Assembly: GCA_003611875.1 (NCBI GenBank)
Contig: RAYY01000017.1
Location: 1-64,000 of the forward strand
Source of the DNA: a bacterium D16-56
GTDB lineage: Bacteria; Bacillota; Clostridia; Lachnospirales; Lachnospiraceae
Direction of reading: 5' to 3'
DNA: 64,000 nt
Of the stretch, positions 43,613 to 59,999 are shown piece after piece. Position numbers and translations under genes: made by a program. How positions within the stretch are numbered: the first letter of the stretch is position 1; the number at the start of each line of letters is the position of its first letter. The notes beneath the pieces were generated by a model. That model saw nothing but the letters and a program-made list of their open reading frames with translations. It was not told the DNA's origin and did not search any database.

Positions 43613-46204
43613 TTATTCGGCAAACCCTATCAGCTTTCCTCCGTCCTGCGCCACATCAACTACAATAGACTGCCCCTGATGAATTTCACCCTGCAGAATA
43701 ATCCTGGCTGCCAGTGTTTCCACATGCTTCTGCAGGTATCTCCGCAATGGGCGGGCTCCATAAGACGGATCATAGCCATGCTCCGTTATAAATTCCTTAG
43801 CTGCCTCTGTCAGCTCCACCCGAAGCTCCTTATCCTCCAGACGTTCATTTACATCCGCCACCATTAAATCCACAATATGACAAATATTATCCCTGGTAAG
43901 CGGTTTAAACAAAATAGTCTCGTCCAGCCGGTTCAAAAATTCCGGGCGGAAATGGTTCCGCAGATCGCCTAATACCATGTGCTCTGCATCCTCCCGCACC
44001 GAACCATTCTCGTCAATGCCATCCAGCAAATATTGAGAACCTATATTTGAAGTCATAATCAAAATCGTATTCTTGAAATCCACGGTTTTCCCCGCAGAAT
44101 CCGTAATCCGCCCGTCATCCAGCACCTGCAGAAGAACATTGAACACATCGGGATGTGCCTTCTCCACCTCGTCAAACAGCACCACAGAATAAGGCTTGCG
44201 CCGCACAGCCTCTGTAAGCTGGCCGCCCTCATCATATCCCACATATCCTGGAGGCGCTCCGATCAGCCGCGCTACCGAATGCTTCTCCATATACTCGCTC
44301 ATATCAATCCGAACCATGTTATTCTCATCATCAAATAATGCTTCTGCCAAAGCCTTTGCCAGCTCTGTCTTTCCCACGCCCGTAGGTCCTAAAAAGAGAA
44401 AAGAACCAATCGGTTTGGTCGGGTCCTTGATCCCCGCCTTAGAACGAAGAATGGCCTCTGTCACCTTCTGTACGCCCTCATCCTGCCCTACTACCCTCTT
44501 ATGCAGAATCCCGTCCAGGTGAAGAATCTTGCTGCGTTCACTCTCGTTAAGCTTGCTGACCGGAATGCCGGTCCACCGGGAAATGATCCGGGCAATCTCC
44601 TCATCACTAACGCTCTCCCGCACCAGGCTTAAATCCTGATTCTTGACCCGCTCCTCCTCTGCCTCCAATTCCTTCTGAAGCTGAGGGAGCCTGCCGTACT
44701 GCAGCTCTGCCGCTTTATTCAAATCATATTGCTGCTGAGCCTGTGCAATATCCCGTCCTACCTGTTCAATCTCCTCCCGCAGGGCGGACAGCTTATCCAC
44801 AGATGCCTTCTCATTTTCCCACTGCGCCTTTCGATTAGCAAATTCATCATGAAGCTCTGCCAGATTTCTCTGGAGATCCTCCAGCCGCTCCTTGCTTAAA
44901 TGATCTGTTTCTTTCTTGAGGGCTGTCTCCTCAATCTCCATCTGCATGATCTTCCGGGCCAGCTCATCCAGTTCTGACGGCATGGAATCCAACTCTGTCT
45001 TAATCAAAGCACACGCCTCGTCCACCAGATCAATGGCTTTATCCGGCAGAAAACGATCAGTAATATACCGGTCGGAAAGCATCGCTGCCGCCACCAGAGC
45101 AGAATCTGTAATCTTTACCCCATGGAAAACCTCATACCGATCCTTAATCCCCCGCAGAATGGAAATCGTATCTTCCACAGTAGGCTGATCCACCATCACA
45201 GGCTGAAATCTCCGCTCCAAAGCCGCATCCTTCTCAATATATTTCCGATACTCATCCAATGTGGTGGCACCGATACAATGCAGCTCTCCCCTTGCCAGCA
45301 TAGGCTTCAGCAAATTTCCCGCATCCATAGACCCTTCTGTCTTTCCCGCTCCCACAATTGTATGCAATTCATCAATAAACAAAATAATCTGTCCGTCACT
45401 TTTCTTTACTTCCTCCAAAACTGCTTTCAGGCGCTCCTCAAATTCCCCTCTATACTTAGCGCCCGCCACCAGCGCTCCCATATCCAGCGCAAAAAGCTTT
45501 CGATCCTTCAAGCCCTCCGGCACATCTCCCCGAACGATCCGCTGAGCCAGCCCCTCTACCACCGCAGTCTTTCCTACCCCTGGTTCTCCAATCAGCACAG
45601 GATTATTTTTCGTCTTCCGTGATAGGATCTGAATCACATTACGAATCTCTCCGTCTCTGCCAATCACAGGATCCAGCTTTTGATCTCTGGCTCTTTCCAC
45701 CAGATCATACCCATACTTTTCAAGCGTATCATACGTAGCCTCCGGATTGTCGCTGACTACCCGCTGATTTCCCCTGACAGTAGAAAGCGCCTGCAAAAAA
45801 CTATCCCGGCTGATCCCATACTGTCGAAACAACTCCTTCATGATCCGGTCCCCATGCTTTAGCATGGACAGGAAAATATGCTCTACCGACACATATTCAT
45901 CCCCCATGGCACGGGATTCATCCTCTGCATGGATCAACACCTTGTTCAAGTCACCACTAATATAAACCTGACCGCTGCCGCTGACCTTTGGAAGCTCCGA
46001 AAGCTTCTTTTCCGCTTCGTTTAAAATCAGCTCCTTCCCCACTTCCATTTTCGTCAGCAGCTTTAAAATCAAACTGTCCTCTAATGACAATAGGCTGTAA
46101 AACAAATGCTCCTGCTCAATCTGCTGATTCCCATACTCATATGCCAGCCTTTCACAATTCTGGACTGCTTCCATTGATTTTTGTGTAAATTTACTTATAT
46201 TCAT
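43613..46204 (-). CDS. clpB: Disaggregase ClpB
   Basis: Hsp100 chaperone that extracts proteins from aggregates with DnaK. The N-domain (1-140), AAA1 with GEPGVGKT and arginine-finger region, the M-domain coiled coil (about 400-520), AAA2 with GPTGVGKT, and the C-terminal domain are all present; no ClpP-binding IGF loop is seen. 863 residues. ATG 46204 has GGAGGAGGG upstream. The promoter and CIRCE operator at 46261-46303 are directly upstream and sit on the junction of an integrated element. Confidence 0.97.
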
Positions 46205-46260
46205 ATATGCACCCTCCTCCGGAATCACCGGACTCTGTCAGTTATCTTTGTTCTAGCCAG

Positions 46261-46303
46261 ACTATAACACATGTTGTTAGCACTGTCAAGAGTCGAGTGC
46301 TAA
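46261..46303 (-). promoter_or_regulatory. CIRCE operator and sigma-A promoter of clpB
   Basis: TTAGCACTG (46277-46285), nine bases, GAGTGCTAA (46295-46303): a CIRCE element with one mismatch to TTAGCACTC-N9-GAGTGCTAA, the HrcA repressor site. On the minus strand TTGACA (46289-46284) is followed after exactly 17 bases by TATAGT (46266-46261), so the -35 box lies inside the CIRCE spacer. HrcA binding would block RNA polymerase directly. The right half-site is part of the element's attachment core. Confidence 0.9.
46287..46303. other. Left attachment core (attL)
   Basis: CAAGAGTCGAGTGCTAA, identical to 58901-58917. It contains the right CIRCE half-site and the first three bases of the clpB -35 box (on the minus strand). 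Confidence 0.85.
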
Positions 46304-46375
46304 AATTGTGTGAAATTTTTATGAAATGCTGATTTTATGTGGTTTCCAGTATTTATATATTTCTATTTTACCCGT

Positions 46376-46413
46376 TTTGACATACGATTGACATATTTTT
46401 TCTTCTGACATAC
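46376..46413. repeat. TGACATA repeats near attL
   Basis: Three direct copies of TGACATA within 38 bases (TTGACATACGATTGACATA, then TGACATAC). Two similar copies lie near attR at 58749-58772 (TTGACATACAATCTGACATA). Their position between the att core and the integrase gene at one end, and inside attR at the other, fits arm-type integrase binding sites. Confidence 0.55.
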
Positions 46414-46450
46414 AAGAATCCACCGTCGATATTGCTGACGGTGGATTCTT
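46414..46450 (-). terminator. Terminator of the integrase gene
   Basis: Perfect 14-bp arms AAGAATCCACCGTC and GACGGTGGATTCTT around nine bases, immediately after the integrase stop. Confidence 0.8.
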
Positions 46451-46452
46451 AC

Positions 46453-47501
46453 TTAAAAATTGATTACATTATCAATTCTCTGTACTTCCTTTTCGGTTCT
46501 CTCAAAACTGCTATGGTTATACACATTCATTGTGATGCTTGCGTCAGAATGCCCCATGACGTTCTGCAATGCCTTTATATCCATTCCTGCGGATGCAAGC
46601 AAGGTACACCCGGTATGCCTTAAAATATGCGCTGACAGATGCGGTATTGCTTCTTCTGAATGTACTTTATTATACGCCTTTTCCATATTCAGCAAAAAGC
46701 TATTGACCGCATTTATCGCAAATGGTTGTCCGTTACCGCTGACAAATACAAAATTGCTGTATCCGTCCACTTCTGCATCGCTCCGTCTGCCTAATATCAG
46801 ATTCTGCTTTCTTAGTTCCACAAACGCCCTGTGAACCGTTTCCGCCATAGGTATGGTTCTTTTCCCGGCATCCGTCTTAGGCTCACTGACATGGAATTTG
46901 CATCCATCACCAAAATTTTTATAGATCAGTTGGTGATTTACACTGATTGTACGGTTTTTCATGTCTATATCGTTCCATGTAAAGCCTGTAAGTTCCCCAC
47001 ATCGCAAACAAGTTCCGATTGCGATTATAAGGAACGGAACATGAACGGAATATGTACCTCAAAGGATGAAAAAATCAAGTTGTGAATCAGTTTGATTGTG
47101 TTCCGTTTCAACCCTGTCTTAACGCAATCGGCATAAAAAGCCTTGACGTGTACTTGCTTTATATCGGAAATCTTTTTCTTTCCAATAGCAGACGCTTCCA
47201 CAGTGTTGTGCCACATTCTGTTGTAATTCTCTCTTGTGGTTGCCCTCAAATCATTTTTTAATTCCATGTGCATCTTAAAAAGCTGATTCAGCGTGGTTTT
47301 ACCGCTTGCATTACTGATTCCGTCCAGTAAATCTCGTTCTATCTCTTTTTCCATTTCACGCAATGATAATAAATCTTTTGCATACACATATCATCTTTTT
47401 CCAGAAGCATCCAGATATAAATAATGGTATCTTCCATCTTTGCGCTCATGCTCACCTTTCCGCAAAACTCGCCCTTTGCTGTCTTTCCGTTTCTCTGCCA
47501 T
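46453..47501 (-). pseudogene. int: Tyrosine integrase, disrupted
   Basis: Tn916-type integrase of the element. From ATG 47501 the arm-binding domain reads MAEKRKDSKGRVLRKGEHER and YHYLYLDASGKR, then a TGA stop where Arg is expected, then YVYAKDLLSLREMEKEIERD in the same frame. The core-binding domain follows to LIHNLIFSSFEV (about 47060). There, roughly 50 residues are missing and the frame changes. The catalytic domain then continues as LIIAIGTCLRCGELTGFTWN with HILRHTGCTLLASAG, GHSDASITMNVYNH (Arg, His, Arg, His, Tyr all present). A nonsense codon plus a deletion make it inactive as read. Confidence 0.88.
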
Positions 47502-47574
47502 ATAACACAACTTCTATTCTCTCAGATAATGCAAAAAAGGGGAAACAACATCTTTGTATTGCTCCCCCTGCCGC

Positions 47575-47790
47575 TTACCCCCTTACCCTCACTTTCAAGC
47601 CGGACAACTCTACATTGCGATAGGTAACAATGTAATAATCAGTTCCGTCATGTTCCACTCGTGAAGTAGTCCATATCAGCGTATCTTCATACTGCCCAGT
47701 ATCGCTGTTATAGATTTCCTCCACTTTCAGAAATTCGATAAATGAACCGCTTGTGTAATAATGCCCTCGTATTCCTCTACTTTCTGCCAA
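47575..47790 (-). CDS. Small element protein, unknown; start uncertain
   Basis: Up to 71 residues, with LIWTTSRVEHDGTDYYIVTY near the middle and a basic end (KVRVRG). The long frame would start at TTG and overlap the upstream gene by 64 bases; a later GTG near 47723 may be the true start. Polar, beta-rich appearance. Not recognised. Confidence 0.4.
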   Translation of the reverse strand: MAESRGIRGHYYTSGSFIEFLKVEEIYNSDTGQYEDTLIWTTSRVEHDGTDYYIVTYRNVELSGLKVRVRG

Positions 47791-47930
47791 TCGTCAGCAC
47801 TCTTTATCTGTCTGTAGTCAGACAATCCGCTTAAATCGCCGTTTTCTTGATAACCGGAAATGTAAAGCACTGTTTCAATCTGCCTTTTCAACTTTGCCAT
47901 TTCGCAAGATAACGCCTTTAAGTCTGCCAT
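47727..47930 (-). CDS. Small element protein, unknown
   Basis: 67 residues from ATG 47930 (MADLKALSCEMAKLKRQIET), a helical N-terminus with possible coiled coil then an acidic region. It starts five bases after the end of the upstream gene. Not recognised; part of the leftward row of small genes. Confidence 0.55.
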   Translation of the reverse strand: MADLKALSCEMAKLKRQIETVLYISGYQENGDLSGLSDYRQIKSADDWQKVEEYEGIITQAVHLSNF

Positions 47931-47934
47931 AAGC

Positions 47935-48234
47935 CTATACCTCGCTTTCTTCTGCAAAATACATTTCTTTCAAATATCCGTATATCTTCGGCATTTCTTG
48001 TATGTCAATATGCTCCAACATTTCAGAAATTCCGTAGTAATAATCAACTACGTTTCCGCTGTCCTCCGGGGAATATTTCTCATTCAATGCCCCACTTCCC
48101 ACCAGATACCCCAAACAATATGGATATACGGTATAAAAGCCGCATATATTTTTAGAAGTTTTCCCCTTTCTGTCATTTCCTGCCTTGTACGCTTCATGTA
48201 TCATGTATTCGTCAATCATTCCTGCTTCTATCAT
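47935..48234 (-). CDS. Small element protein, unknown
   Basis: 99 residues starting MIEAGMIDEYMIHEAYKAGN, with conserved-looking FYTVYPYCLGYLVGSGALNE. Acidic, soluble. Its ATG overlaps the stop of the gene before it (ATGA), so translation is coupled. Not recognised. Confidence 0.6.
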   Translation of the reverse strand: MIEAGMIDEYMIHEAYKAGNDRKGKTSKNICGFYTVYPYCLGYLVGSGALNEKYSPEDSGNVVDYYYGISEMLEHIDIQEMPKIYGYLKEMYFAEESEV

Positions 48235-48386
48235 TTTTTCGATTGACGGAATCGCACTTTGTACCTTTTCTTTGGCTCTCTGTTCATCTCATCCTGCTGT
48301 TTCATTCTGTATTCGTGGCAATTACAGATTGTGCTATATGCCGGAAGTTCGAGCGGCTCTACTCTTATTACCTCGATTTCATTCAT
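48231..48386 (-). CDS. 51-aa element protein, unknown
   Basis: Starts MNEIEVIRVEPLELPAYSTI and ends in a lysine/arginine-rich tail (RYKVRFRQSKK); contains CNCH. GGGGGAGG lies nine bases before the ATG. Both ends overlap neighbours by ATGA. Not recognised. Confidence 0.5.
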   Translation of the reverse strand: MNEIEVIRVEPLELPAYSTICNCHEYRMKQQDEMNREPKKRYKVRFRQSKK

Positions 48387-48514
48387 TTGTTACTGCCTCC
48401 CCCCGCGTGGATATAAAGGTATTCTGCAAGCTGATATAAACGCTTTAATGCCTTTTCTGATAGCCTGTCAAGCATTTTAATCAACCTTGCCTTGTAAAGT
48501 TCCGTTTCCGTCAT
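48383..48514 (-). CDS. 43-aa element protein, unknown
   Basis: Mostly one basic amphipathic helix (MTETELYKARLIKMLDRLSE). AAAGGCGG precedes the ATG. ATGA overlaps at both ends. Confidence 0.5.
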   Translation of the reverse strand: MTETELYKARLIKMLDRLSEKALKRLYQLAEYLYIHAGGGSNK

Positions 48515-48651
48515 GTTCTGCCGCCTTTCCCTACCGACAACATACCCATAATAAAGCTGTATATGCTTTCGATAATAGCAGCGTTGTCTATTTTATGAAC
48601 AATGCGGACAACCTCGGCTTTCTTGCTCTGCCTTGCGTTTTTATGACTCAT
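48511..48651 (-). CDS. 46-aa element protein, unknown
   Basis: Starts MSHKNARQSKKAEVVRIVHK and continues into a hydrophobic stretch (AAIIESIYSFIMGMLSVG). GGAGTGG precedes the ATG. ATGA overlap with the next gene. Confidence 0.5.
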   Translation of the reverse strand: MSHKNARQSKKAEVVRIVHKIDNAAIIESIYSFIMGMLSVGKGGRT

Positions 48652-48760
48652 TCTTTTCCACTCCGTTTTCCTGGATTTTATTCAATATTTCAAGGGCACG
48701 ACATATCCCATTCAGGGCAATATTGCAGAAAATCGCTAATAATATCTCGATTGTAAACAA
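48641..48760 (-). CDS. 39-aa frame with TTG start
   Basis: Reads FTIEILLAIFCNIALNGICR and ends QENGVEKNES, overlapping both neighbours. The TTG start has AGAGGAA just upstream. Coding-like but weakly supported; it may instead be the original 3' part of the upstream gene after a one-base shift. Confidence 0.3.
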   Translation of the reverse strand: MFTIEILLAIFCNIALNGICRALEILNKIQENGVEKNES

Positions 48761-48866
48761 TTTCCTCTTTCTCTGTCATATTGATTGAAACCCCTAAAAC
48801 CGTCTGCATTAACTCCAATTTGCAAGTAGCGGTAAAAATCTGGTCTAAAATATCATTTTTGCTCAT
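48690..48866 (-). CDS. 58-aa element protein, unknown
   Basis: Starts MSKNDILDQIFTATCKLELM; ATG overlaps the previous stop (GCATGAGC). The last residues (LQYCPEWDMSCP) are in a frame that overlaps the 39-aa frame. Not recognised. Confidence 0.5.
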   Translation of the reverse strand: MSKNDILDQIFTATCKLELMQTVLGVSINMTEKEEIVYNRDIISDFLQYCPEWDMSCP

Positions 48867-49030
48867 GCTTCATCACGCCCCCTTATCTCTTGCAGGGCGT
48901 TATCTAAAGCACTTTTTAACTGGCTCAACTCCTCTTTGTTGTCTACTTCATTTATCAGCTTTTTCATGCTATCCTTATATTCTGCTTTTACTTTTTGCTC
49001 CTGCTCTTTCCTGCTCTGCTTTCCTGCCAT
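48863..49030 (-). CDS. 55-aa charged helical element protein
   Basis: Starts MAGKQSRKEQEQKVKAEYKD; almost entirely charged helix, likely coiled coil. GGAGGA precedes the ATG. First of the tightly overlapped run of small genes to its left. Confidence 0.5.
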   Translation of the reverse strand: MAGKQSRKEQEQKVKAEYKDSMKKLINEVDNKEELSQLKSALDNALQEIRGRDEA

Positions 49031-49049
49031 TCCTCCACAAAAGCCGCTG

Positions 49050-49184
49050 TTACATCATACTGGCTAATTGTATGCAGTGTGCATTGTATAAATCAGTGGC
49101 AATAAAGGTATAAAAGAAATTGATTATATCATCCCTGCCGATTGCCGTTATGAGGTCAATAAGTTTCTGTTTATTTTCCGTCAC
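49050..49184 (-). CDS. 44-aa element protein, GTG start
   Basis: Starts at GTG 49184 (VTENKQKLIDLITAIGRDDI) with AGGCAGGG upstream, overlapping the preceding gene by 14 bases. Not recognised. Confidence 0.4.
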   Translation of the reverse strand: MTENKQKLIDLITAIGRDDIINFFYTFIATDLYNAHCIQLASMM

Positions 49185-49434
49185 TATGCCGCCCTGCCTT
49201 TCCTGCTTCATATCCCATGCAAAAGGCGGCTTGTATCGCTGTAGATACCCCAAAATCTGCATATTTCGCTACATCAACAAGACTGAAAAATTTCTCACTT
49301 CCCAAAAATTTCAAAATATCTTCCTTTTCAAGAAAATCTTCACGGAGATTGTCGGCCAGTGATTGAACCTCTGCAACGTCTACATGATTTCTCTTTGCTT
49401 TCAGCTTTTTCTTTATTTTTTTGACAAAGTACAT
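49171..49434 (-). CDS. 87-aa element protein, unknown
   Basis: Basic N-terminus (MYFVKKIKKKLKAKRNHVDV) followed by helical FLEKEDILKFLGSEKFFSLV and GVSTAIQAAFCMGYEAGKA. No signal peptide. Follows the 41-aa gene by three bases. Not recognised. Confidence 0.6.
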   Translation of the reverse strand: MYFVKKIKKKLKAKRNHVDVAEVQSLADNLREDFLEKEDILKFLGSEKFFSLVDVAKYADFGVSTAIQAAFCMGYEAGKAGRHSDGK

Positions 49435-49437
49435 AAA

Positions 49438-49563
49438 TTACCATTCTTTTCTTGCACCGGATATGGTATGCTTCTCTATATCCGGCTTTGCTATGTGTCC
49501 GGGTTGCTTGCCCTTGTCAGAGTTGCCGCTCTGTGAGGGCATTTTATTTTCTCTGGTCTGCAT
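49438..49563 (-). CDS. 41-aa hydrophilic element protein
   Basis: MQTRENKMPSQSGNSDKGKQ and so on, entirely polar and probably disordered. AAAGGAAG precedes ATG 49563. Weak support apart from ribosome site and tight spacing to the next gene. Confidence 0.4.
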   Translation of the reverse strand: MQTRENKMPSQSGNSDKGKQPGHIAKPDIEKHTISGARKEW

Positions 49564-49694
49564 ACACTTCCTTTCTATGGCTCACCTTATATGGCGGATG
49601 GCATTGTTTACGGTTCGTGCGGCTGTCAGATAGCCAGATAAGAGAATAGATGCTATCCCATGAGAAAGTGGGATGAAAAGCAATTTTCAAATTT

Positions 49695-49904
49695 CTAATC
49701 TTCAATAATTACAATTTCTTTTGCAGATAAATCCAATGCCTCACAGATAGCAGGAACAACTTTTACTTTTCCTATCCTGTTGCCATTCAGCGTATTAGAT
49801 ACCGCCTGTTGACTAACGCCACCTTGCTTGTCTATCTCTGTAGCCGTCAAGCCCTTTTCAGCCATTGCAAGGTAGATTTTCTTTGTATCTAACCTCATTT
49901 TCAT
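49695..49904 (-). CDS. Cro/CI-type helix-turn-helix regulator
   Basis: 69-residue single-domain HTH protein (MKMRLDTKKIYLAMAEKGLT, KQGGVSQQAVSNTLNGNRIG, LDLSAKEIVIIED). GGAGGTAATGCT places ATG 49904. Divergent from the CI-like gene, with operator-like repeats in the 151-base gap. Likely the lytic-side or accessory regulator (Cro or Str-like) controlling the leftward gene row. Confidence 0.85.
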   Translation of the reverse strand: MKMRLDTKKIYLAMAEKGLTATEIDKQGGVSQQAVSNTLNGNRIGKVKVVPAICEALDLSAKEIVIIED

Positions 49905-49931
49905 AGCATTACCTCCAATTCCAGTGTTTAC

Positions 49932-50030
49932 AATCAAATAATTGATTTGCTTATATTATACCAATCTTTTGATTGATATCGATACTAAAATTTAATCTTT
50001 TGATTTATTTTTTCAAAACTTTTTGATATA
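49932..50030. promoter_or_regulatory. Operator-like repeats between divergent regulators
   Basis: AATCAAATAATTGATT (about 49932-49947), CAATCTTTTGATTG (about 49962) and AATCTTTTGATT (about 49993) share AATC...GATT dyads; a weaker AAACTTTTTGAT is near 50017. The TATA-like sequences TATTATAC and GATATACTTAT give promoters in both directions. Layout matches a genetic switch. Confidence 0.55.
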
Positions 50031-50055
50031 CTTATATCCGTGGAGGTAAAGAAGA

Positions 50056-50502
50056 GTGAATATAGGTGATAATATGCGTAATATACGTAAGCAAAAAAGC
50101 ATGACATTACAGCAATTAGCAGATATTTTAGGATGTTCTCAACAGAATATTTCTCAATATGAAAGCGGAAAAAGAACACCCAAATTAAAAACCATCCAGA
50201 AAATAGCTGATGCATTAAATGTAAATGTAAATGATTTATTAGAAAATCCGCTTGACGATTCACCAATTTACAAGGCGTATAAAAATACAAATTCTCTTGA
50301 TTTACCACTTGCAAAAAATTTTATAAATGAGAAGATCGTATCACAAATAGGTGATTGGGAACAAATAGACATTGAATTATTAAAAAAATTCAAACAATTA
50401 AATGAAACAGGAAAAGCAATAGCCATTGAACGAATAGAAGAACTTACTGAAATCCCACGTTACACCCAAAAAGAAAGCAATGTGCCAGATAAAGAAGATT
50501 GA
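50056..50502 (+). CDS. CI-like XRE repressor of the element
   Basis: 148 residues, GTG start with TGGAGG eight bases upstream. N-terminal HTH (MRNIRKQKSMTLQQLADILG, SQQNISQYESGKRTPKLKTI) then a C-terminal oligomerisation-type region without the Ser/Lys protease dyad of LexA-like repressors. In satellites such a repressor (Stl) is removed by a helper-phage protein. The only plus-strand gene in the element's centre. Confidence 0.85.
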   Translation: MNIGDNMRNIRKQKSMTLQQLADILGCSQQNISQYESGKRTPKLKTIQKIADALNVNVNDLLENPLDDSPIYKAYKNTNSLDLPLAKNFINEKIVSQIGDWEQIDIELLKKFKQLNETGKAIAIERIEELTEIPRYTQKESNVPDKED

Positions 50503-50518
50503 GGAAACAAAAAACTTC

Positions 50519-50667
50519 TTGCTTCCTGCCCCCAGATGTGCTATATTAGACATAAGAAAAGGGAAAAGCCATAGAAGCGGCTCTACCCCCGAATGAATGA
50601 TTTTCTACCTATTCTTTTGAAATAGGCAAGCCGTCACTATTGCGAGTAGTGGCGGCTATTTCTTTTT
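50519..50667 (+). ncRNA. Predicted antisense antitoxin RNA with its promoter and terminator
   Basis: TTGCTT (50519-50524) and TATATT (50542-50547) spaced by 17 bases form a good promoter. About 105 bases on, GCCGTCACTA (50620s) and TAGTGGCGGC pair as a terminator followed by TATTTCTTTTTT. The transcript (about 50555-50667) would run into the 3' end of the toxin gene on the opposite strand, the arrangement of TxpA/RatA-type systems. Prediction only. Confidence 0.6.
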
Positions 50668-50748
50668 TCCCTTGAAGATTGTATAGCATAATCCCACAAG
50701 GGCAACAATGAATATTCCAGTCTGAATCAGATCGGAGTATGTAACCAT
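50656..50748 (-). CDS. Holin-like type I toxin peptide
   Basis: A 30-residue peptide: MVTYSDLIQTGIFIVALVGL followed by CYTIFKGKKK, a single membrane helix with a basic end. This is the 'putative holin-like toxin' pattern common in Firmicutes. AAGGAGGGTGATGCA before the ATG is a perfect ribosome site. The 3' end is covered by the predicted antisense RNA. Membrane damage on overexpression would be expected from the family. Confidence 0.8.
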   Translation of the reverse strand: MVTYSDLIQTGIFIVALVGLCYTIFKGKKK

Positions 50749-50884
50749 TGCATCACCCTCCTTTCTTTCGTCTGGAGGGCTACTTGAACCCTCCGAAAAA
50801 TAAGAGGGATAAAGCCGCCTTTGGCTCTATGGTTTTCCCATATCGACAATATAACACATTTTCCCCTATCGGGCAATATGCTTT

Positions 50885-51843
50885 TCACTTTTCCGGCTTG
50901 TGTGAATTTCGTTCAAGCCTTTTTCTGTGCATTTCCTCAATCTCCGCTAAATGCCGCTTATAGCGTTCCTCTGCTTCTATCCGCTTTTCTGCTAAATGCT
51001 CCACGATAGAAGTAAAATTACGCTCTTTGTAGTTATTCAAGCCGCTTTCCGGTTTCAAGCCATTATTAACCCTGTCAATAGATGCTCTTAACTTTTCTTT
51101 TATTTTTTCTGTGTCCTGTACGGTCTTAATGCCGTTCATCATGGTTACTGCCCGTGCGTAGCGGTCAGCCTTTCCGCCTTTCCATTCCGCCATCACATCA
51201 GAAATTCCGGCAACCTCATAGGCTTCACTTCTTATGTCTTTATCTTTGGCAAGCCGGTAAAGCAACATATTTTTTGTATCTTCTTTTTTCAGATTCCGCA
51301 AGCTGTTGGAGATTGCACACGCCTTTGACATCTGCCCCGACATTGCCCGGATTTTATAATATGCTCTTTCGGCGGCGTCCGCTTCTGATAAGCCCTTAAC
51401 CCTGTTAGTGTAAATATTCACCACATTGTTTAATACATCATCATTCAAATACAGAAACCTTGCTTCCGATGCTTCCCTTGTTTGTCCTGTCAGGCTGAAA
51501 TGCTCTAACAGTAAATCCAGTTGTCCGCTAAGTTGGTCAAGTACATTCAGCTTCACATCTAAGGAAGAATCAAGCGGTAAATCAGTAACCGGGATTCCGT
51601 TTTCTTCTGCCAGTGCCGCAACTGCACGTTGCACCCAGTAATTTCCCTCGCCTTAATAATTGCCATATCACAGGCAAGCCGGATCTCCTGCTTTTTGGCG
51701 GTATATGTGGGAGAACCGGCTTTATAATCTCTGTCCAGTATCTCAAGTTCATTTTTCTCCCTTTCCGTTATGTCAATGTATTCTGCCTGATAGCGGCTCC
51801 GCACATCTCGCAGTAAATTTGTTAAATCGTAAATGTATGTCAT
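50885..51843 (-). pseudogene. Helical element protein split by a frameshift
   Basis: From ATG 51843 MTYIYDLTNLLRDVRSRYQA runs to AIIKAREITG near 51640, then breaks. One base off, VQRAVAALAEENGIPVTDLP continues to 50885 (LAEIEEMHRKRLERNSHKPEK end). Joined, it is about 315 residues, mostly helical with coiled-coil character. The second part could start at GTG 51634 as a coupled gene, but the smooth continuation favours one broken gene. Function unknown. Confidence 0.55.
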
Positions 51844-51972
51844 AATAAATTACCTTTCTTTAATAGCCTTTTTTATTTTTTTTAATTTTGAAAAACCTTT
51901 TTTCTTTAAAAATTTGTTCTTGTAGCTCAATGAAGAACATACGTTCGCACCATAAAACCCCTGCTCTATGCT

Positions 51973-52510
51973 TTATTTCAGCATTTCCCTAGCGTAATAC
52001 TGGAATGTTGCCATGATGTAATATCCGCTGTACTGTTTATCTATGAATTGTACATTGCAGTTAAAACGTGCTTCCCATGCTTTCAATGAAGCCATGAACG
52101 CAACCGGGGCAAACTGTGTATTGTATCTATGCCCGATAATGGAAGAATAGCCGCCCATATCCTCAACCATTAAATATAGTTTCGCCCTATCGTTCCCGGC
52201 TCTTAGAAATTCCCTCTCGAACCTCTCTCTTTCCTGTGCCAGATTGCCGGACAATTCTTCAAGGCCTGCTTTCCTCTCTATGTCCAATATCCCTATGGAA
52301 ATATATATCTTCTCCTGCTACCTCTGCCGGGATATAAAAGGAATAATCCCCATAGCTTAATGCGGTAGGCTCATAGGCTATATTGTTCTTATCAAGGTAA
52401 TCTGTTATATGGCGGTTCTGCTTCTCTCTGGTATCTACCAGTACAACAATACTGCCCGTCAGCTTCTTAATATCCTTGTCCGCATATTTATATTGCTTGA
52501 TATATAACAT
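51973..52510 (-). pseudogene. ERCC4-type nuclease, frameshifted
   Basis: ATG 52510 opens MLYIKQYKYADKDIKKLTGS and VVLVDTREKQNRHITDYLDK (the DTRE part of the ERCC4/XPF nuclease site) and LSYGDYSFYIP. The frame breaks near 52280; one base off, DIERKAGLEELSGNLAQERE supplies the second half of the active site (ERKxxxE) and continues to 51973. About 175 residues when joined. Structure-specific nuclease of phage/satellite type. The break may be real or a sequencing error. Confidence 0.75.
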
Positions 52511-52811
52511 CCTCTTTCTATGCCCTCTAATCGCTCCATATTTCCTTATCTAAACGCACACATTATTCAATTTTCAAGGTACAAATCTATGACAAACAAT
52601 CTTTTAAATAGTTTAGGACTTGATATCCGACCATGCAAAACATAAGAAAATCTGCCATACTCTTTATCCGAATACTCAACAAAAATGATATGTATTTAGC
52701 ATAAGTTAGTGCTAATAACAATCATATTTTCTTGATTTCAAAGCATTTAAAACATCCTAATATATACTCTGACATATTCTTTGACATAAAATCATGCACT
52801 AATTGTCATTT
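52511..52811. other. AT-rich gap, possible replication or recombination site
   Basis: No gene. Contains two more TGACATA copies (52768-52785, CTGACATATTCTTTGACATA) and TTAGCATAAGTTAGTGCTAA, an imperfect dyad. It lies downstream of the replication genes' terS-like neighbour. Origin function is possible but unsupported. Confidence 0.35.
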
Positions 52812-53450
52812 TTAATCTGTCGCTGTGTCAGGCTCTGTGTGCGCTAAATAGGAAAGTGCATCACTGTTGTTGTCCATATCCCCCAACTTTGGAAGCTGTA
52901 CGGCGTCCTTTTCTACATCCTCTTTAGGTTCTCCCAATCGTGGCAACTCTGCCGCTGTCAATACTCTTTGCTGTTTGTCGCTTATAGCTTCAATCTTAAA
53001 TTCGCTTGTGTTCACATAGCTGTGATTGTTCGTCAAATCAAACATTGCTACTACTGGCGGTATCTGTTGATGAAAAGCCAACTCTTTTTTACAAGCGGCT
53101 ATTGCGTTTTTCGTCTGCTTTATAAAGTCCTGCCAACTGCCGCCCCTCCGCTTCTCATAGGTCAGCAACGTATTTCTGGTTATCTCCAGAAAAGTACATA
53201 ACGCTTCAACGTCAGGCACTAACTTTTTGTCAATGTCCGGGTTTGCGTTCGTGTCTTTGACATACTGGAAATAGTCAATCGTTGTGCACTTAAATTCTTC
53301 TAACCCCTGTTCCGTTTCCGGGTACGCTGGCGGTCTTCCCATTTTTAGGCTCTCAATAGTCATGTTCAATACCGCTTCAAGCGTGTTATCCGTTCCTATC
53401 GGCTCCGGCGTGAAACGCTTGTATTCTTTCGGCTGCAGCTGATTTTTCAT
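52812..53450 (-). CDS. Terminase-small-subunit-like DNA-binding protein
   Basis: 212 residues. The middle has MGRPPAYPETEQGLEEFKCT, then VPDVEALCTFLEITRNTLLT with YEKRRGGSWQDFIKQTKNAI and AMFDLTNNHSYVN: the HTH and following helices seen in small terminases of this type (GRP-x-Y ... LC-x-LG ... ALKN). The C-terminus has a double LPRLGEP/LPKLGD repeat. In satellites a private TerS redirects packaging of helper-phage capsids. No large terminase is present. Sequence-level call, moderate confidence. Confidence 0.6.
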   Translation of the reverse strand: MKNQLQPKEYKRFTPEPIGTDNTLEAVLNMTIESLKMGRPPAYPETEQGLEEFKCTTIDYFQYVKDTNANPDIDKKLVPDVEALCTFLEITRNTLLTYEKRRGGSWQDFIKQTKNAIAACKKELAFHQQIPPVVAMFDLTNNHSYVNTSEFKIEAISDKQQRVLTAAELPRLGEPKEDVEKDAVQLPKLGDMDNNSDALSYLAHTEPDTATD

Positions 53451-53651
53451 GCTTAAAACCTCGCTTTCTTAAAAATTGATTATTTTATGCCTTTTTCGTG
53501 CGAAGAAAGTATGTATGTGGCTTAGCCATTACATCATTCTCACTACACTTTTCCACTTCCACGGGGGGGTAACTATCACAAAACAAACTGTGGAAGCTTT
53601 AAAGAAATTATTTTTTTATACAACCCATTGAAAATACACAACACGCACAAA

Positions 53652-53858
53652 CTATGTTTTTTCCTCTTTGCTGATTCGCTCAAACTCCGTCAGTTCTGCA
53701 AGTATCAAATCTTTTGCAAATCGTGAATTATCATACTTTTTGTACAGCTTGTCCGCATCTGCAATCACTGCTTCCCAAAATTCATCCTCATTGCAAATTC
53801 TATCAATATACTGCTTATGAAACTGCCAAATTTCACGATATACTTCGAAATAGTCCAT
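53652..53858 (-). CDS. Small acidic element protein, unknown
   Basis: 68 residues, MDYFEVYREIWQFHKQYIDR, helical and acidic. AGAGGTACAG precedes ATG 53858. It follows the helicase gene by 15 bases and is likely cotranscribed. Not recognised. Confidence 0.6.
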   Translation of the reverse strand: MDYFEVYREIWQFHKQYIDRICNEDEFWEAVIADADKLYKKYDNSRFAKDLILAELTEFERISKEEKT

Positions 53859-53873
53859 ATACTGTACCTCTCG

Positions 53874-55326
53874 TTAATCAAATGGCAACGGCTCCGATTC
53901 ATCAATTTCAATGAAATCTTCACCTACAAAGTCATATCCCCGAATAATGTTGCGAACCGTTTTACCGTTCACTGTTCCAGATGCCTTGTAAATGTTCTTT
54001 GACTTCACATCATCAATAAAATTCCGCTTATTTTCTGTATGAAAACCGTTGTCATTGCACCATTCCTCATACTTTTCATATAAATCCATAATAGCAATAT
54101 TGCACCCTTTTTTCTCCACAAGGCAGTCATTGATAAAGTTTTGCATTTTATCAGATGAATTAGCGTATTCCACTGTAGCCGCCCGGATGTTCTCCGGCTC
54201 ATCCAACCCCCTCTTTACAAAAAAGTAACCATCCGGAAATACACCAGTTTAAGATTCCACTTAATGCATTACCTGTAGATAATTTATTCTTTAGCGTTTT
54301 ATCCTGTTCACTCTCTGCAAAATGTCGGTCAAACGAAATAACCTGTACCCGATCTGACTTAAAAATAGTGGTATCACTGACAACAGGAAGATAATTTGTG
54401 TTGCAAATCAGTTTAAAGCAAGGCGTAAACTGGAACTCTGATTGATGTAAAAATCTTGCCGATATGGCATCTCGTCCAGTCATACTCTTTAGCAATGCAA
54501 CATCCAGTGCCATTCTTTTTTGTGGTTCTGATGCGACTGCAAGCCGTTTTCCTGCCAGTTTTGCAATATCCGGGCTTGCTGTCCGACTGTCTGTATTATT
54601 TTTAATTGCCAATGTTTCCGCTCGGACTGATACGGCATAAGTTCCTAATAAATTAGATATTGTTTCAATCATCGTGCTTTTTCCATTTCTCGTTGTGCCT
54701 CCAAATAGAAACCACATTTTTTCAATCCTTGTGTCGCCAGTAAGACAAATGTCAAATAGCTTTTGCAGATAACGGACTTTCTCTTGATTGCCCTCCATAA
54801 CTTCATCAACAAATTTTTTCCACCATTCACATGACTTGCCCGGCTCATACCGCACATTCGCAATCTGCGATAATAACAAATCAGGGGCATGCTTGATAAA
54901 CTCAACTCTGTCTTGACGCAATACCAAAACGCCATTCAGACAATTTAAAATATACAAGTCAGTATCGCAATCTTCATTCTTAAAAAAATTCAGATCCCTT
55001 GCATCCTGGATAATTGTATTTCGTTTTCGATGCTCATTCCATGTTGTCGCATATTTCAAATATTTATTATCATCCTCTGATTCCGATACCGCATATTTGA
55101 TAAGTGCTTTCGCTAGAATCTTTGTCATATTCCGCACTTTCAAACCGCCTAAATCAATCGCCTAATACTTTCCATTAAATTCATACCATTCACTGGCCGT
55201 AGCATTATATCTACATGTTTTATTGAAAATATCAGACAATAACCTTGCAGAGCCTATGTCGTCATGCGAATAAGTTCTGATTGCATTTTTCATTTTCAGC
55301 CACTCAACAATATTTTCCTCTGTCAC
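53874..55326 (-). pseudogene. P4-type replicative helicase, amber codon plus frameshift
   Basis: GTG 55326 (VTEENIVEWLKMKNAIRTYS) has GGGGAGG nine bases upstream and overlaps the primase stop. The frame meets TAG at 55164-55162 in WYEFNGKY-stop-AIDLGGL, where TGG (Trp) is expected, then continues in frame through the helicase core: Walker A FGGTTRNGKSTMIE, ISARFLHQSEFQFTPCFKLI, LICNTNYLP. Near 54206 a run of five Gs shifts the frame; with four Gs it reads KEGLDEPENIRAATVEYANS and continues to 53874. About 480 residues when repaired. SF3/D5-type helicase of satellites. Confidence 0.85.
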
Positions 55327-56189
55327 ATTCCACCACCTCCCCGATATATGGTATGGCAATCCGAAATGGCTTTCTTAATCGCCAGATTCATCTTTCTTTC
55401 ATTCCTGTAAATTCCCGAACTTCTGAAAATATTACGCATAATGCCCTCACTGCATCCGCACCAAAAAGCCAGCATATTTGCAAACTTTAAATCTGCGCTG
55501 GATTGTGTACCGTCGCCGATTCCAAGACATTTCCAATTTCCATTTAATAAGTCCGAAAATACTTGTCCATTTCTGCCATTTTCGGCTTTCTCTATAATTT
55601 CACGCTCCGACAGCAACATCACACACTGTGGAATCCTCCTTGTATTCTCTGTTTGCTTTTTTCCTCTGTTACAATAGTTGTAAAGTATATCTATTCTCTC
55701 TTGTGCTTCTGATAAATCTATAGGATTGACAGCGTTGCCTGTTAAAGCCGCATACCGTCCTGTGGAATATAATTCAATTTCTTTTGTCTTTACTGCTTTT
55801 TTCACTGTTCCCAAAGCAAAAATATGCAACCCGTTTCCGCTTTGTGATACTTCAATAAATGTATCTTTGAAATTATCAATTATGTTCTCTGCTAATGGCG
55901 TTAAAACCCCGTTATCGTCCCTGCAATGGTCTAAATCAATGAATGTAATATCTTTATCAAGAACGAAGCCCAAACCGCCGTATTGGCCCGATTTAAAGCA
56001 TTGCAAAGCGTTTTCATAGGTTGTCCATGTCCTGCCGTTGGTTGTGCTTGCCTTGCCATTGTATAATGCTGAATATGGGATTTTACGCTGTTTTCCTTTA
56101 TCATCCGTTTCTAACTTCCACAGTATGAAATTATTACGTTTCTTCATCTGCGGGGGAATATAGAAATCTGCCATTTTATCACCACTCAT
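55323..56189 (-). CDS. Primase-type protein of the element
   Basis: 288 residues. MADFYIPPQMKKRNNFILWK, GGLGFVLDKDITFIDLDHCR (metal-binding DxD strand), VSQSGNGLHIFALG (SGxGxH) and YSTGRYAALTGNAV are the bifunctional primase/polymerase signature motifs, followed by a helical PriCT-like end. It starts by ATGA overlap with the upstream DNA-binding protein; MADFY at 56174 is an alternative start. Ends overlapping the helicase start. Together they are the replication module. Confidence 0.85.
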   Translation of the reverse strand: MSGDKMADFYIPPQMKKRNNFILWKLETDDKGKQRKIPYSALYNGKASTTNGRTWTTYENALQCFKSGQYGGLGFVLDKDITFIDLDHCRDDNGVLTPLAENIIDNFKDTFIEVSQSGNGLHIFALGTVKKAVKTKEIELYSTGRYAALTGNAVNPIDLSEAQERIDILYNYCNRGKKQTENTRRIPQCVMLLSEREIIEKAENGRNGQVFSDLLNGNWKCLGIGDGTQSSADLKFANMLAFWCGCSEGIMRNIFRSSGIYRNERKMNLAIKKAISDCHTIYRGGGGM

Positions 56190-56380
56190 TCAGCATATAC
56201 CTTTTCGATGTAGTCAAAAAATATGCTCTTTTTTATTCTGTAGCTTCTTCCTATCTTCCGTACTGCTCCGGCTTCCTCCGCAATCCTCCTAACTGAGATT
56301 GCCCCTAAATTAGATTCCTGGCAAGCCTGTGTTAAAGTAATTAACGTGCCATCTTGATTACGATTTTTAGCTAAATTCAT
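56186..56380 (-). CDS. Excisionase-like DNA-binding protein (DUF6462 type)
   Basis: 64 residues. ITLTQACQESNLGAISVRRI and AEEAGAVRKIGRSYRIKKSI form a MerR/Xis-like winged helix as in DUF6462 proteins. GGAGG eight bases before ATG 56380. First gene of the leftward replication operon, divergent from the cargo gene. Could be the AlpA-like activator or the excisionase. Confidence 0.75.
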   Translation of the reverse strand: MNLAKNRNQDGTLITLTQACQESNLGAISVRRIAEEAGAVRKIGRSYRIKKSIFFDYIEKVYAE

Positions 56381-56448
56381 ATTTTACCTCCTTTGAGAAC
56401 TATTTATTTTTTATATTTTATATAGTTCTCTTTGAGAGGAGGAAACAG

Positions 56449-57559
56449 ATGTATCTTTATTATTTTGACATTACAAACCAAAAAATAATTCAATATAATG
56501 ATGATTCCAATGCTTTGATTGTTGATTTATTTCACCCATTATTAAGTTTCATTAATGCCGATTTCTCCGAATACGATTTACTAAGACGTAAAATAATCTT
56601 ATTCATTCAAGAATCTGAAAGCAAATTTGAGGAAATGGATTCTAATGAAATTAAACAGGAAATTAAGAAAGCTTTTCCAAATCTTCATCTTTGGGACATT
56701 GATAATGGTGAAATATGGTGGATATCTGGGCTTGTTGCTGATTTGGTTTGGCAATATTCAGAATATGAGCCTTTCTTTTTTGTATGTAGATTTAGCAGAG
56801 ATTCTATTCAAGATAAAAATGATTATGATTATTTGTATTGGCAAAAAAGATGCGAGATAAAGTCTATGAAGTATTTGATATAGACAATAAAAATTTTATA
56901 AATAATTTTTCTCCAATGTGTAGACTAAACTATTGGGATGATCATCCTCTAGTTTTTAAGGAAGTAGTAGTTATACATCCAAGCGAATACGAAAAACTTC
57001 ATGATAAATATGAATTATTTGCCATTCCTTTTCATCCAATTGATCCAGAAAATCAAAATGATTCATATATTGATTGCAACTATGCTGAAAAAGAACCGCA
57101 GAGACAAGAATTCATTAAAAATCATCTGAATATCCTCAATGGATACGAATTTAAATCCATTGAAGAAGCATTTAACTGTGTAATTTTTAAAATGGCACAA
57201 ATTGGAATTACACTAAGACGTTGTAAACATTGTAGAAAATATTTTAAGTTTAATCCTAATCAACCAGCAGAATATTGTACCAATAAGCCTAATGGAGTCA
57301 ACATGACCTGCCAGCAGATTGCGGCGCAAAAAAAATATAAAGCCAAACAATCTCCGATTCAAAAAGCATATATAAACTCACTAAAAAACAGGAATAAATG
57401 GTATCCATCTAAAAAAAGTGGATTGAGAGCCCCGGAACAAACACGTGAATATGAAAAATGGAAAAAGAAAACTTCTGCTATCCGTGATGAATTTCAACAA
57501 AAATATGATAGTGCTCAAACAGATAGTCAAAGAGAGATGATATTAGAAGAATTTAACCT
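56449..57559 (+). pseudogene. DUF6076 zinc-ribbon-like cargo gene, frameshifted and cut by IS982
   Basis: GAGAGGAGG precedes ATG 56449 (MYLYYFDITNQKIIQYNDDS). The frame runs to DYDYLYWQK near 56850, where one A is missing from an A run; repaired it continues as KMRDKVYEVFDIDNKNFINN. The C-terminal part holds CKHCRKYF, YC and MTCQQIAAQKKYKAK, the zinc-site pattern of DUF6076 proteins. The natural end is interrupted at 57556 by IS982; the last residues (KQNLNE, stop) lie beyond it at 58673-58690. About 370 residues originally. It is visibly more AT-rich than its neighbours and oriented opposite to the element's operon, next to attR: the usual place for satellite cargo. Function unknown. Confidence 0.7.
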
Positions 57560-58667
57560 GTTGTGCTAGTTAATATAGAAAAACTTCAACAAAATATGCT
57601 ATCCTATAGTTGTAAACCACTACAGACTATGAAAGGAGGCACATGATGCTGAAGTTTCAAGGTGATTATACCACTCTCATAGCAACTTTTGAAGACTTTA
57701 TTTTACTTGTTTATACAATGATTGATGACTTATATCAACAGTTTGTTCCCGCATCTGTCTCAAAAAGGCGAAACGCGGATGCCGCCAAAATGTCTGACTC
57801 TGAAATTATTACCTTGAGCATTTGCAGCGAACTCATTGGTATAGACTCCGAAAATGCCTGGTACTCCTTCGTAAAACGCAACTACCGGCATCTTTTTCCA
57901 AATCTGTGCTGTCGTACTCGGTTCAACCGGACCAGAAGGGCCCTTTTGCAAGTGACCGAACTGCTCCGTCAGAAGATTAGCCAGGTTTTTCCCATCCCAC
58001 ACAGCCGTTTTTTTGTAATCGATAGCTTCCCGCTTCCGGTCTGTAAGTTTGGACGGGCGCGTTATTGCCACTCCTTCCGTGCGGATGGGGCCAATTATGG
58101 AAAGTGCCCATCGAAAAAAGAGACCTATTTTGGCTTCAAGGTTCATGCCCTGATCACACTGGAAGGATACATTACGGCGTTTGAGATTACACCGGCATCC
58201 GTGGATGACCGGGAAGGGCTCCGTGACCTGGTGGAAAACCAACTCGGCTTGGTCATCCTGGGGGACAAAGGCTATACCGGGAATCTTCTTTGGGAAGACA
58301 TGATGAAACAAGGGGTCTGCCTGATGTCATTGAAACCTTCTAATTATAAAGAAAACTGGCCTAAGGAGGTGAGGCAGCTGATCTTTCGTTTCCGTCGAAG
58401 GGTAGAAACCGTATTTTCGCAGCTCACGGAACAGACGAATGCCAAAAGAGTCCTGGCAAAAAGTTTTCGGGGATTATGTACCCGACTGCAGAACAAAATT
58501 TTAGGACATAATCTATGCATGGCCTTTAACAGTATCTTTCGGGAACCCTGTGATATTGGAAGAATTAAAGAACTCATTTTCTAAAAAATGAGCCATCAAA
58601 CATTGACAGGGCCTTTTTGGGCTTTTTTAGCCTTTTAAGATTTCTCTATTGAAGTAGCACAACGAGT
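57557..58667 (+). mobile_element. IS982-family insertion sequence, complete
   Basis: Inverted ends GTTGTGCTAGTTAATATAGA (from 57560) and, reversed, GTTGTGCTACTTCAATAGAG (to 58663). Flanked by an 8-bp direct repeat GAATTTAA (57549-57556 and 58668-58675), so the insertion is simple and recent enough to keep its target duplication. Exact ends may differ by two or three bases. Confidence 0.85.
57646..58584 (+). CDS. IS982 transposase
   Basis: 312-residue DDE transposase. FFVIDSFPLPVCKF holds the first Asp, VILGDKGYTGN the second, and RRRVETVFSQLTEQ the Glu. N-terminal helical DNA-binding region includes MSDSEIITLSICSELIGIDS. AGGAGG is six bases before ATG 57646; ATG 57643 is only three bases from it and less likely. 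Intact frame. Confidence 0.95.
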   Translation: MLKFQGDYTTLIATFEDFILLVYTMIDDLYQQFVPASVSKRRNADAAKMSDSEIITLSICSELIGIDSENAWYSFVKRNYRHLFPNLCCRTRFNRTRRALLQVTELLRQKISQVFPIPHSRFFVIDSFPLPVCKFGRARYCHSFRADGANYGKCPSKKETYFGFKVHALITLEGYITAFEITPASVDDREGLRDLVENQLGLVILGDKGYTGNLLWEDMMKQGVCLMSLKPSNYKENWPKEVRQLIFRFRRRVETVFSQLTEQTNAKRVLAKSFRGLCTRLQNKILGHNLCMAFNSIFREPCDIGRIKELIF

Positions 58668-58715
58668 GAATTTAAGCAAAATTTGAACGAATGATTGTCT
58701 CGAAAATCACAATCC

Positions 58716-58747
58716 AAAAGACTACCGGCAACTGCTGATAGTCTTTT
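58716..58747. terminator. Terminator after the cargo gene
   Basis: AAAAGACTA and TAGTCTTTT arms around 14 bases; it follows the original stop of the DUF6076 gene by about 25 bases. Confidence 0.65.
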
Positions 58748-58748
58748 C

Positions 58749-58772
58749 CATTGACATACAATCTGACATATT
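58749..58772. repeat. TGACATA repeats near attR
   Basis: TTGACATACAATCTGACATA, nearly the same spacing as the left-end copies at 46378-46400 and in the same orientation. Candidate integrase arm sites. Confidence 0.5.
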
Positions 58773-58900
58773 TTTATTCAAACAAGACAAATAAAGACGA
58801 TAAATCAACCACCAGGCAACATGCCAAAATCCGCAAAATTCCTTGATTTTAAGCCACTTTCAAACAAAGACGAACCAACACGAATTTCACCTTGTACTTA

Positions 58901-58917
58901 CAAGAGTCGAGTGCTAA
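58901..58917. other. Right attachment core (attR)
   Basis: CAAGAGTCGAGTGCTAA, identical to attL. It is followed by CAAATAG, which extends the dyad symmetry with TTGTTAGCACT at 46275-46285, showing that the sequence right of 58917 is the original chromosomal upstream region of clpB. Confidence 0.85.
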
Positions 58918-59097
58918 CAAATAGTAAAAAAATACGCTGTCCCGATGTGATGTCCTGATGCATCATGATCCCATCTATGATTGTATGATTGCTACGTACC
59001 GAATTGCCATATTGTATCAAATCGCCGCATTGTCAGCACCGCTAATTTCATCCTGCCTCCTCTAATTCTGCCTGTGTGTCCTCCAAATTTCGAAACG

Positions 59098-59170: not shown

Positions 59171-59746
59171 TTACAGCGCCGCATTAACCTCATCCTCACA
59201 GGACCGCATCGCCTCAATTGTCTTAGCAAACAGCTCATCCAATTCCCAGCCTAATCCCTCTGCTCCCTGTCGAATAATATCCCTAGAACAGCCTGCCGCA
59301 AATTTTTTATCCTTGAACTTTTTCTTCAAGCTGGACACTTCCATATCCTTACAGCTTTTTGACGGACGCATTCTGGCGGCTGCGCCAATTAACCCGGTCA
59401 GCTCATCGGCTGCAAACAATACCTTCTCCATCTGATGAACTGGTTCCACATCACTGCAAATACCATATCCATGAGAACAGATAGTATAAATCATGTCCTC
59501 TCCCACACCCGCCGCCTGAAGCAATTCCGGGGCTTTTACACAATGCTGATCCGGATACTGCTCAAAATCAATATCATGAAGCAGCCCTGCGATTCCCCAA
59601 TACTCCTCATCCTCTCCATAGCCCAGTTCTCTTGCATACCACCGCATAACTCCCTCTACTGTTAAGGCGTGCAGAATATGAAATGGCTCCTGATTATATT
59701 TTTTCAATAATACCAATGCGTCTTCCCTTGTAATCTGGCTTTTCAT
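59171..59746 (-). CDS. HD-domain phosphohydrolase
   Basis: 191 residues of the small HDIG family. HILHALTVEGVM gives the first His, GLLHDIDFEQYP the HD pair, and HGYGI a later ligand; EKVLFAADELTGLIGA is a conserved helix. Substrate unknown (nucleotide-type). GGAGGAG before the ATG. Original upstream neighbour of clpB before the element inserted. Confidence 0.88.
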   Translation of the reverse strand: MKSQITREDALVLLKKYNQEPFHILHALTVEGVMRWYARELGYGEDEEYWGIAGLLHDIDFEQYPDQHCVKAPELLQAAGVGEDMIYTICSHGYGICSDVEPVHQMEKVLFAADELTGLIGAAARMRPSKSCKDMEVSSLKKKFKDKKFAAGCSRDIIRQGAEGLGWELDELFAKTIEAMRSCEDEVNAAL

Positions 59747-59923: not shown

Positions 59924-59994
59924 GCAGATGTAGTTCATTGGTAGAATATCAGCTTCCCAAGCTGAGGAGGCGGGTTCGATTCCCGTCATCTGCT
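59924..59994 (+). tRNA. tRNA-Gly (CCC)
   Basis: 71-base cloverleaf: acceptor GCAGATG pairs with CATCTGC, anticodon loop TTCCCAA between TCAGC and GCTGA, T-arm GCGGGTTCGATTCCCGT. CCA is not encoded. Reads GGG codons. Confidence 0.95.
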
Positions 59995-59999
59995 TATAT

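Follow-up and report, generated by a model that had tools for sequence, protein, structure and literature searches.

Mobile elements of a Tn916/Tn1549-related integrase clade at CIRCE, the operator of heat-shock genes

Closest described systems

Tyrosine integrases usually have their attachment sites in tRNA genes or at the ends of coding genes, and phage satellites as a class combine an integrase, a primase-helicase and a gene of the terminase-small type. A wide range of AT-rich targets is open to Tn1549 and Tn916, and the core on which the Tn1549 Int acts has a crossover of 5 to 6 bp flanked by imperfect 11-bp repeats (both as described in parts of PMC5871717). The Bifidobacterium prophages integrated in dnaJ2 use a tyrosine integrase to enter a single heat-shock gene at its 3' coding end, and this gene is rebuilt (sections of PMC6109161), and TnGBS uses a DDE transposase and inserts 15–16 bp upstream of the −35 box, with no shared target sequence (sections of PMC4701971).

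In the window, by which we mean the whole stretch of 64,000 nucleotides analysed, a 12.6-kb element adjoins the gene clpB. We are highly confident that it integrated by site-specific tyrosine recombination at CIRCE and that the attachment site of its integrase clade is CIRCE itself, whichever operon stands behind it. The integrases of this clade are relatives of the Tn916 and Tn1549 Int and not Tn916 elements: the kinship is shared, but the clade sits in one operator, whereas the targets of Tn916 and Tn1549 are loose. The clade resembles integrative elements and prophages that enter tRNA genes or coding-gene ends in having a conserved host target and a restoring piece carried on the element; unlike theirs, its target is a transcription-factor operator together with a promoter, present at several unrelated operons per genome. 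A heat-shock gene and its rebuilding are also common to the dnaJ2 prophages, although their target is a coding end and CIRCE is absent from the main text of that paper (PMC6109161). TnGBS likewise inserts at promoters and spares the gene, but not in an operator, as far as sections of PMC4701971 describe it. A sequence-only reading of the window had regarded a heat-shock operator as an unusual attachment site, and it agrees with our literature search, in which (subscription journals and preprints being outside its scope) no report of the CIRCE/HrcA operator as an attachment site was found.

The element at the clpB operator

The following features of the window are used below.

43613–46228, minus strand: clpB, the host gene under CIRCE (Pfam ClpB_D2-small, Clp_N, AAA_2); the open reading frame is listed from a GTG, and an inner ATG (MNISKF) is the likely start
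46261–46289, minus strand: clpB promoter, −35 box TTGACA at 46284–46289, −10 box TATAGT at 46261–46266, spacing 17 bp
46277–46303: CIRCE at the integrase-side junction (attL), with the host arm on the 46277–46286 side and the element-derived arm GAGTGCTAA
46287–46303: integrase-side copy of the 17-bp core repeat, from the repeat search
46287–58917, minus strand: integrated element, 12.6 kb, with a period of 12,614 bp
46453–47007, minus strand: C-terminal catalytic piece of the integrase (PF00589, 7.7e-24)
47025–47387, minus strand: N-terminal piece of the integrase, in another frame (PF14659)
49695–49937, minus strand: small HTH protein (PF01381)
50056–50502, plus strand: Cro/CI-type HTH regulator (PF01381, 1.4e-17)
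51973–52287, minus strand: ERCC4-type nuclease remnant (phrog_3490, profile positions 68–171 of 175 only)
52812–53450, minus strand: terminase-small-subunit-like protein (PF16677, 7.2e-08; phrog_606, 4e-09)
53874–55359, minus strand: D5-type primase-helicase in two frames (the L036 homologue aligns as 1–386 and 379–494, in different frames)
55323–56189, minus strand: primase-like protein with an NrS-1 polymerase HBD domain (PF22763; PHROG primases)
57643–58584, plus strand: DDE transposase of an insertion sequence inside the element (PF13612, PF01609)
58715–58900, minus strand: conserved far end, the element part of attP (82–92% identity to the ends at L036, L039 and L040)
58901–58917: far copy of the 17-bp core repeat (attR), with the host's old half-operator
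59171–59746, minus strand: HD-domain host gene (PF01966), which adjoins clpB in the empty-site relative

The element has the 17-bp direct repeat CAAGAGTCGAGTGCTAA at both ends and its integrase next to one of them. With up to 3 mismatches allowed, these two copies were its only matches in the window, while shuffled controls gave a mean of 0.11 matches, with two matches in 0 of 100 shuffles. The CIRCE motif TTAGCACTC-N9-GAGTGCTAA stands before clpB in the form TTAGCACTG-TCAAGAGTC-GAGTGCTAA, with 1 of 18 arm positions off the consensus, and is overlapped by the clpB promoter; the minus-strand end of the repeat is TTG, the first three of the six −35 bases. In the reading direction of clpB, the near junction runs out of the element as ...CACACAATT/TTAGCACTCGACTCTTG/ACAGTGCTAACAACATGTGTTATAGT... 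into clpB, and the far junction runs out of the host as ...CTATTTG/TTAGCACTCGACTCTTG/TAAGTACAAGGTGAAAT... into the element. Joining the two flanks by script gave CIRCE arms of TTGTTAGCACT and AGTGCTAACAA; the three bases outside the arm are TTG in the joined flanks, versus ATT at the occupied junction. The repeat, the half-site and the TTG of the −35 box are exactly as the sequence-only reading had given them. A gene that, from its protein sequence, we take to be hrcA is present in the same genome with a CIRCE of its own (L003).

An empty counterpart of the site exists in the genus-mate G1046 (L150), where an HD-domain gene (88% amino acid identity), a CIRCE and clpB follow each other in the order and direction of the window, without the element. 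Contrary to the refuting condition that the sequence-only reading had set for empty sites, the locus of this relative has the operator. Its surroundings differ: from the end of the HD-gene alignment to the core there are ~261 bp in the joined window versus 93 bp in L150, an unconserved spacer, and within CIRCE the spacer reads ACCTATTG in L150 versus GACTCTTG in the window. In the genus, clpB was matched in 22 of the 24 genomes searched, the window's own included. The search gave 41 matches, of which 30 loci were scanned upstream, and a CIRCE-like motif (≤4 mismatches) lay within 500 bp upstream of clpB in 27 of these 30. Two of the 30, the window's genome and G003 (another genus), carried a piece of a window-type integrase upstream of clpB. 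G1032 (L146) and G1035 (L164), both of the window's genus, show clear remnants of a different family element at the clpB CIRCE, so this site has been used more than once. Weak remnants or short end-like footprints lie beside the clpB CIRCE in G1038 (L157) and G1040 (L166). Two tRNA-Gly genes (CCC and GCC) at 59924–60072 of the window, 1 kb past the far end of the element, are not used as attachment site.

Conserved CIRCE arms, and half-sites that are not rare, could in principle have put two independent half-sites of unrelated genes at this distance by chance or through misassembly. We give this reading a probability close to nil, since the window offers no chance match to the 17-bp pair, an empty site exists and the ends of the element have counterparts in related elements of three other genomes. 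When the query extended into the flanks, homology at the far end stops at 58917 against L039 and L040 and at 58932 against L036; on the clpB side, homology to the L039 element, which lies at hsp20, stops at 46247, just past CIRCE and promoter. Independent half-sites and an assembly artefact were rejected on the unique repeat pair, the empty site and the homologous ends, so that the circumstance named beforehand as fatal to integration, two unrelated half-sites, did not materialize.

The window's copy has decayed. Against the intact integrase of L036, residues 1–151 align at 47049–47501 and residues 174–394 at 46456–47118 in different frames; a gap of ~22 residues separates the pieces, each of which contains one in-frame stop. 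The primase-helicase also shifts frame, and an IS transposase lies within the element. The element is very probably an immobile fossil, although its rebuilt operator is intact in sequence. Among the nine close relatives (≥91% identity), only L036 has a full open integrase, and contig ends cut L038 and L043. In gene content (integrase, D5-type primase-helicase, terminase-small-like protein and partial ERCC4 nuclease) the element recalls a phage satellite. It differs from phage satellites in being decayed and having no known helper phage, and elsewhere in the clade a relaxase or defence genes are carried instead. At clpB, remnants with integrase fragments were also seen at L063 and L068, with 1.8 and 1.3 kb between the ends.

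An integrase clade and its attachment site

Relatives were gathered with integrase similarity as the sole criterion, from draws of 299 family, 392 order and 398 phylum genomes and from a named collection. In a tree of 88 rows, for which three rows were dropped (the window's 19-aa fragment in favour of its 184-aa piece, fragments below 140 aa and a second L048 fragment) and duplicate copies of named genomes (G222, G169, G214, G152 and G122 C63) were likewise excluded, 48 rows lie on one side of a branch with SH-aLRT support of 96. A more careful tree of 63 rows has a branch (support 95/92) that holds all rows with CIRCE plus the CIRCE-less G597 and G624. CIRCE (≤4/18 mismatches) follows the integrase in 39 of the 48 clade rows, within 900 bp in 37 and at ~2 kb in 2, many of these rows being near-copies, so that such counts are not independent. 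Within 900 bp or the available sequence, none was found in 39 outgroup rows (the best had 6 mismatches, and a 40th, L055, had no room), and 1.36 Mb of reversed sequence contained none at ≤3 mismatches and one at ≤4. The check proposed beforehand, for integrases of this kind beside CIRCE in other genomes, was positive, and integration inside the operator with its rebuilding, proposed for the window's element, turns out to be the habit of a clade. In the phylum draw 4 of 398 genomes besides the window's had a match at E 1e-90 or better, and none of these had CIRCE near the integrase. All further members of the clade were obtained from the draws at family and order level or from the named collection; they include L060, whose host, Faecalibacillus intestinalis, belongs to the class Erysipelotrichia.

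The intact integrase of L036 matches the chains 6en0, 6emy and 6emz (E 1e-51) and the N-terminal chains 1bb8 and 1b69 (E 2e-9), which we take to be Tn1549 and Tn916 Int, and that of G035 contains the Pfam 'DNA binding domain of tn916 integrase'. Catalytic and N-terminal arm-binding domains are both present in intact relatives, and the window's copy holds them in two pieces. Columns invariant in 13 aligned relatives include R212, H337, R340, H363 and Y373, presumably the catalytic set of tyrosine recombinases (R, H-x-x-R, H, Y).

This kinship gives some ground for a relaxed, Tn916-like integration, of which survivors would be seen only where the host gene was left unharmed; Tn1549 prefers loose AT-rich targets (parts of PMC5871717), and the half-sites of L051 and G028 C28 adjoin other coding sequence. 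Against it, 39 of the 48 rows sit in a 27-bp motif found at six places in the window's genome (≤2 mismatches), and if avoidance of harm were the only filter, many other intergenic sites should remain. The low target specificity and differing coupling sequences of the Tn916 type were not seen in the clade, with these 39 rows in CIRCE and spacers that agree beyond shuffling (see below). We therefore hold relaxed integration to be very unlikely.

The genes behind the rebuilt CIRCE (n = 39) are clpB (19), hsp20 (13), htpG (3), groES(-groEL) (2) and a thioesterase-lon operon (1), one case ending with its contig; each target gene family was verified on one example. All 38 identified target genes follow the integrase on the same strand, and none of them is hrcA. 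Near-identical integrases are found at different heat-shock genes, as in L128 (clpB) and L127 (groES) or L134 (hsp20) and L133 (clpB), which argues that the target is the operator and not the gene. Counting fragments outside the tree, 40 of 41 attL junctions keep TTGAC and a −10 box (≥4/6 matches) at 17 bp. Promoter and operator are thus usually confounded, the TTGAC of the −35 box lying inside CIRCE at 37 of the 41, and what the integrases recognise might be the heat-shock gene or a strong promoter with TTGACA, CIRCE being merely nearby. However, at the three htpG sites (G130, G080 and G111 C62) TTGAC lies outside CIRCE, beyond it, and in G130 the CIRCE spacer, AACAAAAC, is where the repeat ends; moreover, the target genes are unrelated in sequence and a CIRCE arm is always within the repeat. 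Recognition of gene or promoter is accordingly improbable in our judgement, if marginally less so than relaxed integration. The htpG sites disfavour both gene-specific and promoter-only targeting.

Targeting of CIRCE would explain how one integrase type comes to stand at clpB, hsp20, groES, htpG and a lon operon. The 9 of 48 clade rows without it comprise four half-sites that run into what appears to be the end of another family element, in tandem arrays (the first integrase of G028 C18, G141 C20, one integrase of G550, and L065), two at coding sequence (P-type ATPase in L051, Schlafen/AlbA-type in G028 C28) and three with no CIRCE within reach (G597, G624 and L029; G597 was scored as none with a 4-mismatch motif at 725 bp and no heat-shock gene). 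The fragment L066, outside the tree, showed no CIRCE. Apparent tandem stacks at one CIRCE, half-site to half-site, were noted at L134/L135 (G028 C18), L130 (G141 C20), L113/L123 (G550) and L313 (G1069). At L051:10780-11139 the half-site lies at a P-type ATPase fragment, and an element-like end precedes the far end of that element; this half-site is either a secondary site or a junction with another element.

Proposed strand exchange, a possible link to stress control, and cargo

Both ends are known for 22 elements, some through a single match to a conserved element end elsewhere in the genome (G550, G1069 and a 3-mismatch match in G1059 were excluded); patterns made from the element ends led to a far end in 9 of 12 genomes and in 12 of 16. 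The 8-base spacers are identical at both ends in 11 of the 22 and differ somewhere in the other 11. At spacer positions 12–17, 128 of 132 cells match in the 22 pairs versus 97 expected with shuffled partners, and the TTG class, with 19 pairs, gives 111 of 114 versus 103, odds that are optimistic because the elements are related. In this class, positions 10, 11, 13 and 14 differ in 5, 4, 1 and 2 pairs, respectively. G130 at htpG has a different spacer, identical at both ends. From this end-to-end agreement we locate the crossover at the later positions of the CIRCE spacer.

As the sequences show, the element end brings one CIRCE arm (TTAGCACTC) and the spacer, ~17 bp in all, and the host supplies the promoter-proximal arm, the remaining −35 bases, the −10 box and the gene. 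After integration the CIRCE of the heat-shock gene is complete again and its promoter has the right spacing, and the host's old half-operator stands at the far end. We suggest that each CIRCE arm serves as a core site for one of two integrase subunits and that strands are exchanged in ~6 bp of the spacer, positions 12–17 of 27. The length of CIRCE, a palindrome of 9+9+9 = 27 bp, fits the Tn1549 Int core of 11 + 5 or 6 + 11 bp. The far arm of attP is CIRCE-like in the window's subfamily only, which weakens the case for such two-arm binding. The gain, as with tRNA-gene targeting, would be a conserved landing site that is present several times per genome and survives insertion. By analogy, a repressor operator takes the place that tRNA genes have for other integrases, and since CIRCE is conserved among distant bacteria the clade would represent another solution to the need for a safe, widespread landing site, from which further insertions could be predicted from sequence alone.

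That integration is tied to stress control, as had been proposed for the window, is a plausible conjecture. More tentatively, HrcA may be a gatekeeper: bound to CIRCE it would block the integrase, and its release by heat or folding stress would open attB in recipients and attL in carriers. We rate this possibility as doubtful; if true, it would couple the movement of cargo such as BREX to the proteotoxic signal that also induces the chaperones. The clade makes repressor gating of horizontal transfer directly testable.

Cargo varies while the integration module is constant. The 14 elements with both ends measure 7.9–28.9 kb, and cargo was scanned for some proteins of few elements. The 28.5-kb element of G152/L044 (L143, L302; G152 contig C34), integrated in CIRCE, carries a full BREX set (BrxA, BrxB, BrxC, PglX, PglZ and BrxL) and has a MobA/VirD2-type relaxase inside (PF03432, 1.8e-31), as expected of an integrative mobilizable element. 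In the G035 element a type III methyltransferase is accompanied by a helicase-like protein of the Snf2 type, and a D5-type primase-helicase is also found in the L036 element. Of four L060 proteins compared with defence models, three had no match and the fourth a weak one. A search for defence islands of Lachnospiraceae could therefore include CIRCE-integrated elements.

In viral collections the TTGACA-class CIRCE had no match, and a perfect CIRCE was found in 104 stretches, 80 loci of which were scanned, with the clade-integrase profile only. Four integrase ORFs appeared, at 213, 2068, 2097 and 3539 bp, and the nearest (L179) is of outgroup type beside groES. Only one weak relative of the window's integrase piece (25% identity) was found on viral contigs, and 1953 phage records matched a clade integrase, all below 60% identity. 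The outgroup-type integrase at L179:3275-4762 (IMGVR_UViG_650377940_000003) ends 213 bp before a groES-groEL CIRCE; judging from this locus, there may be a second integrase family at heat-shock operons. Another viral contig (L199:5424-5548) holds three perfect CIRCE motifs in a row, in steps of 49 bp.
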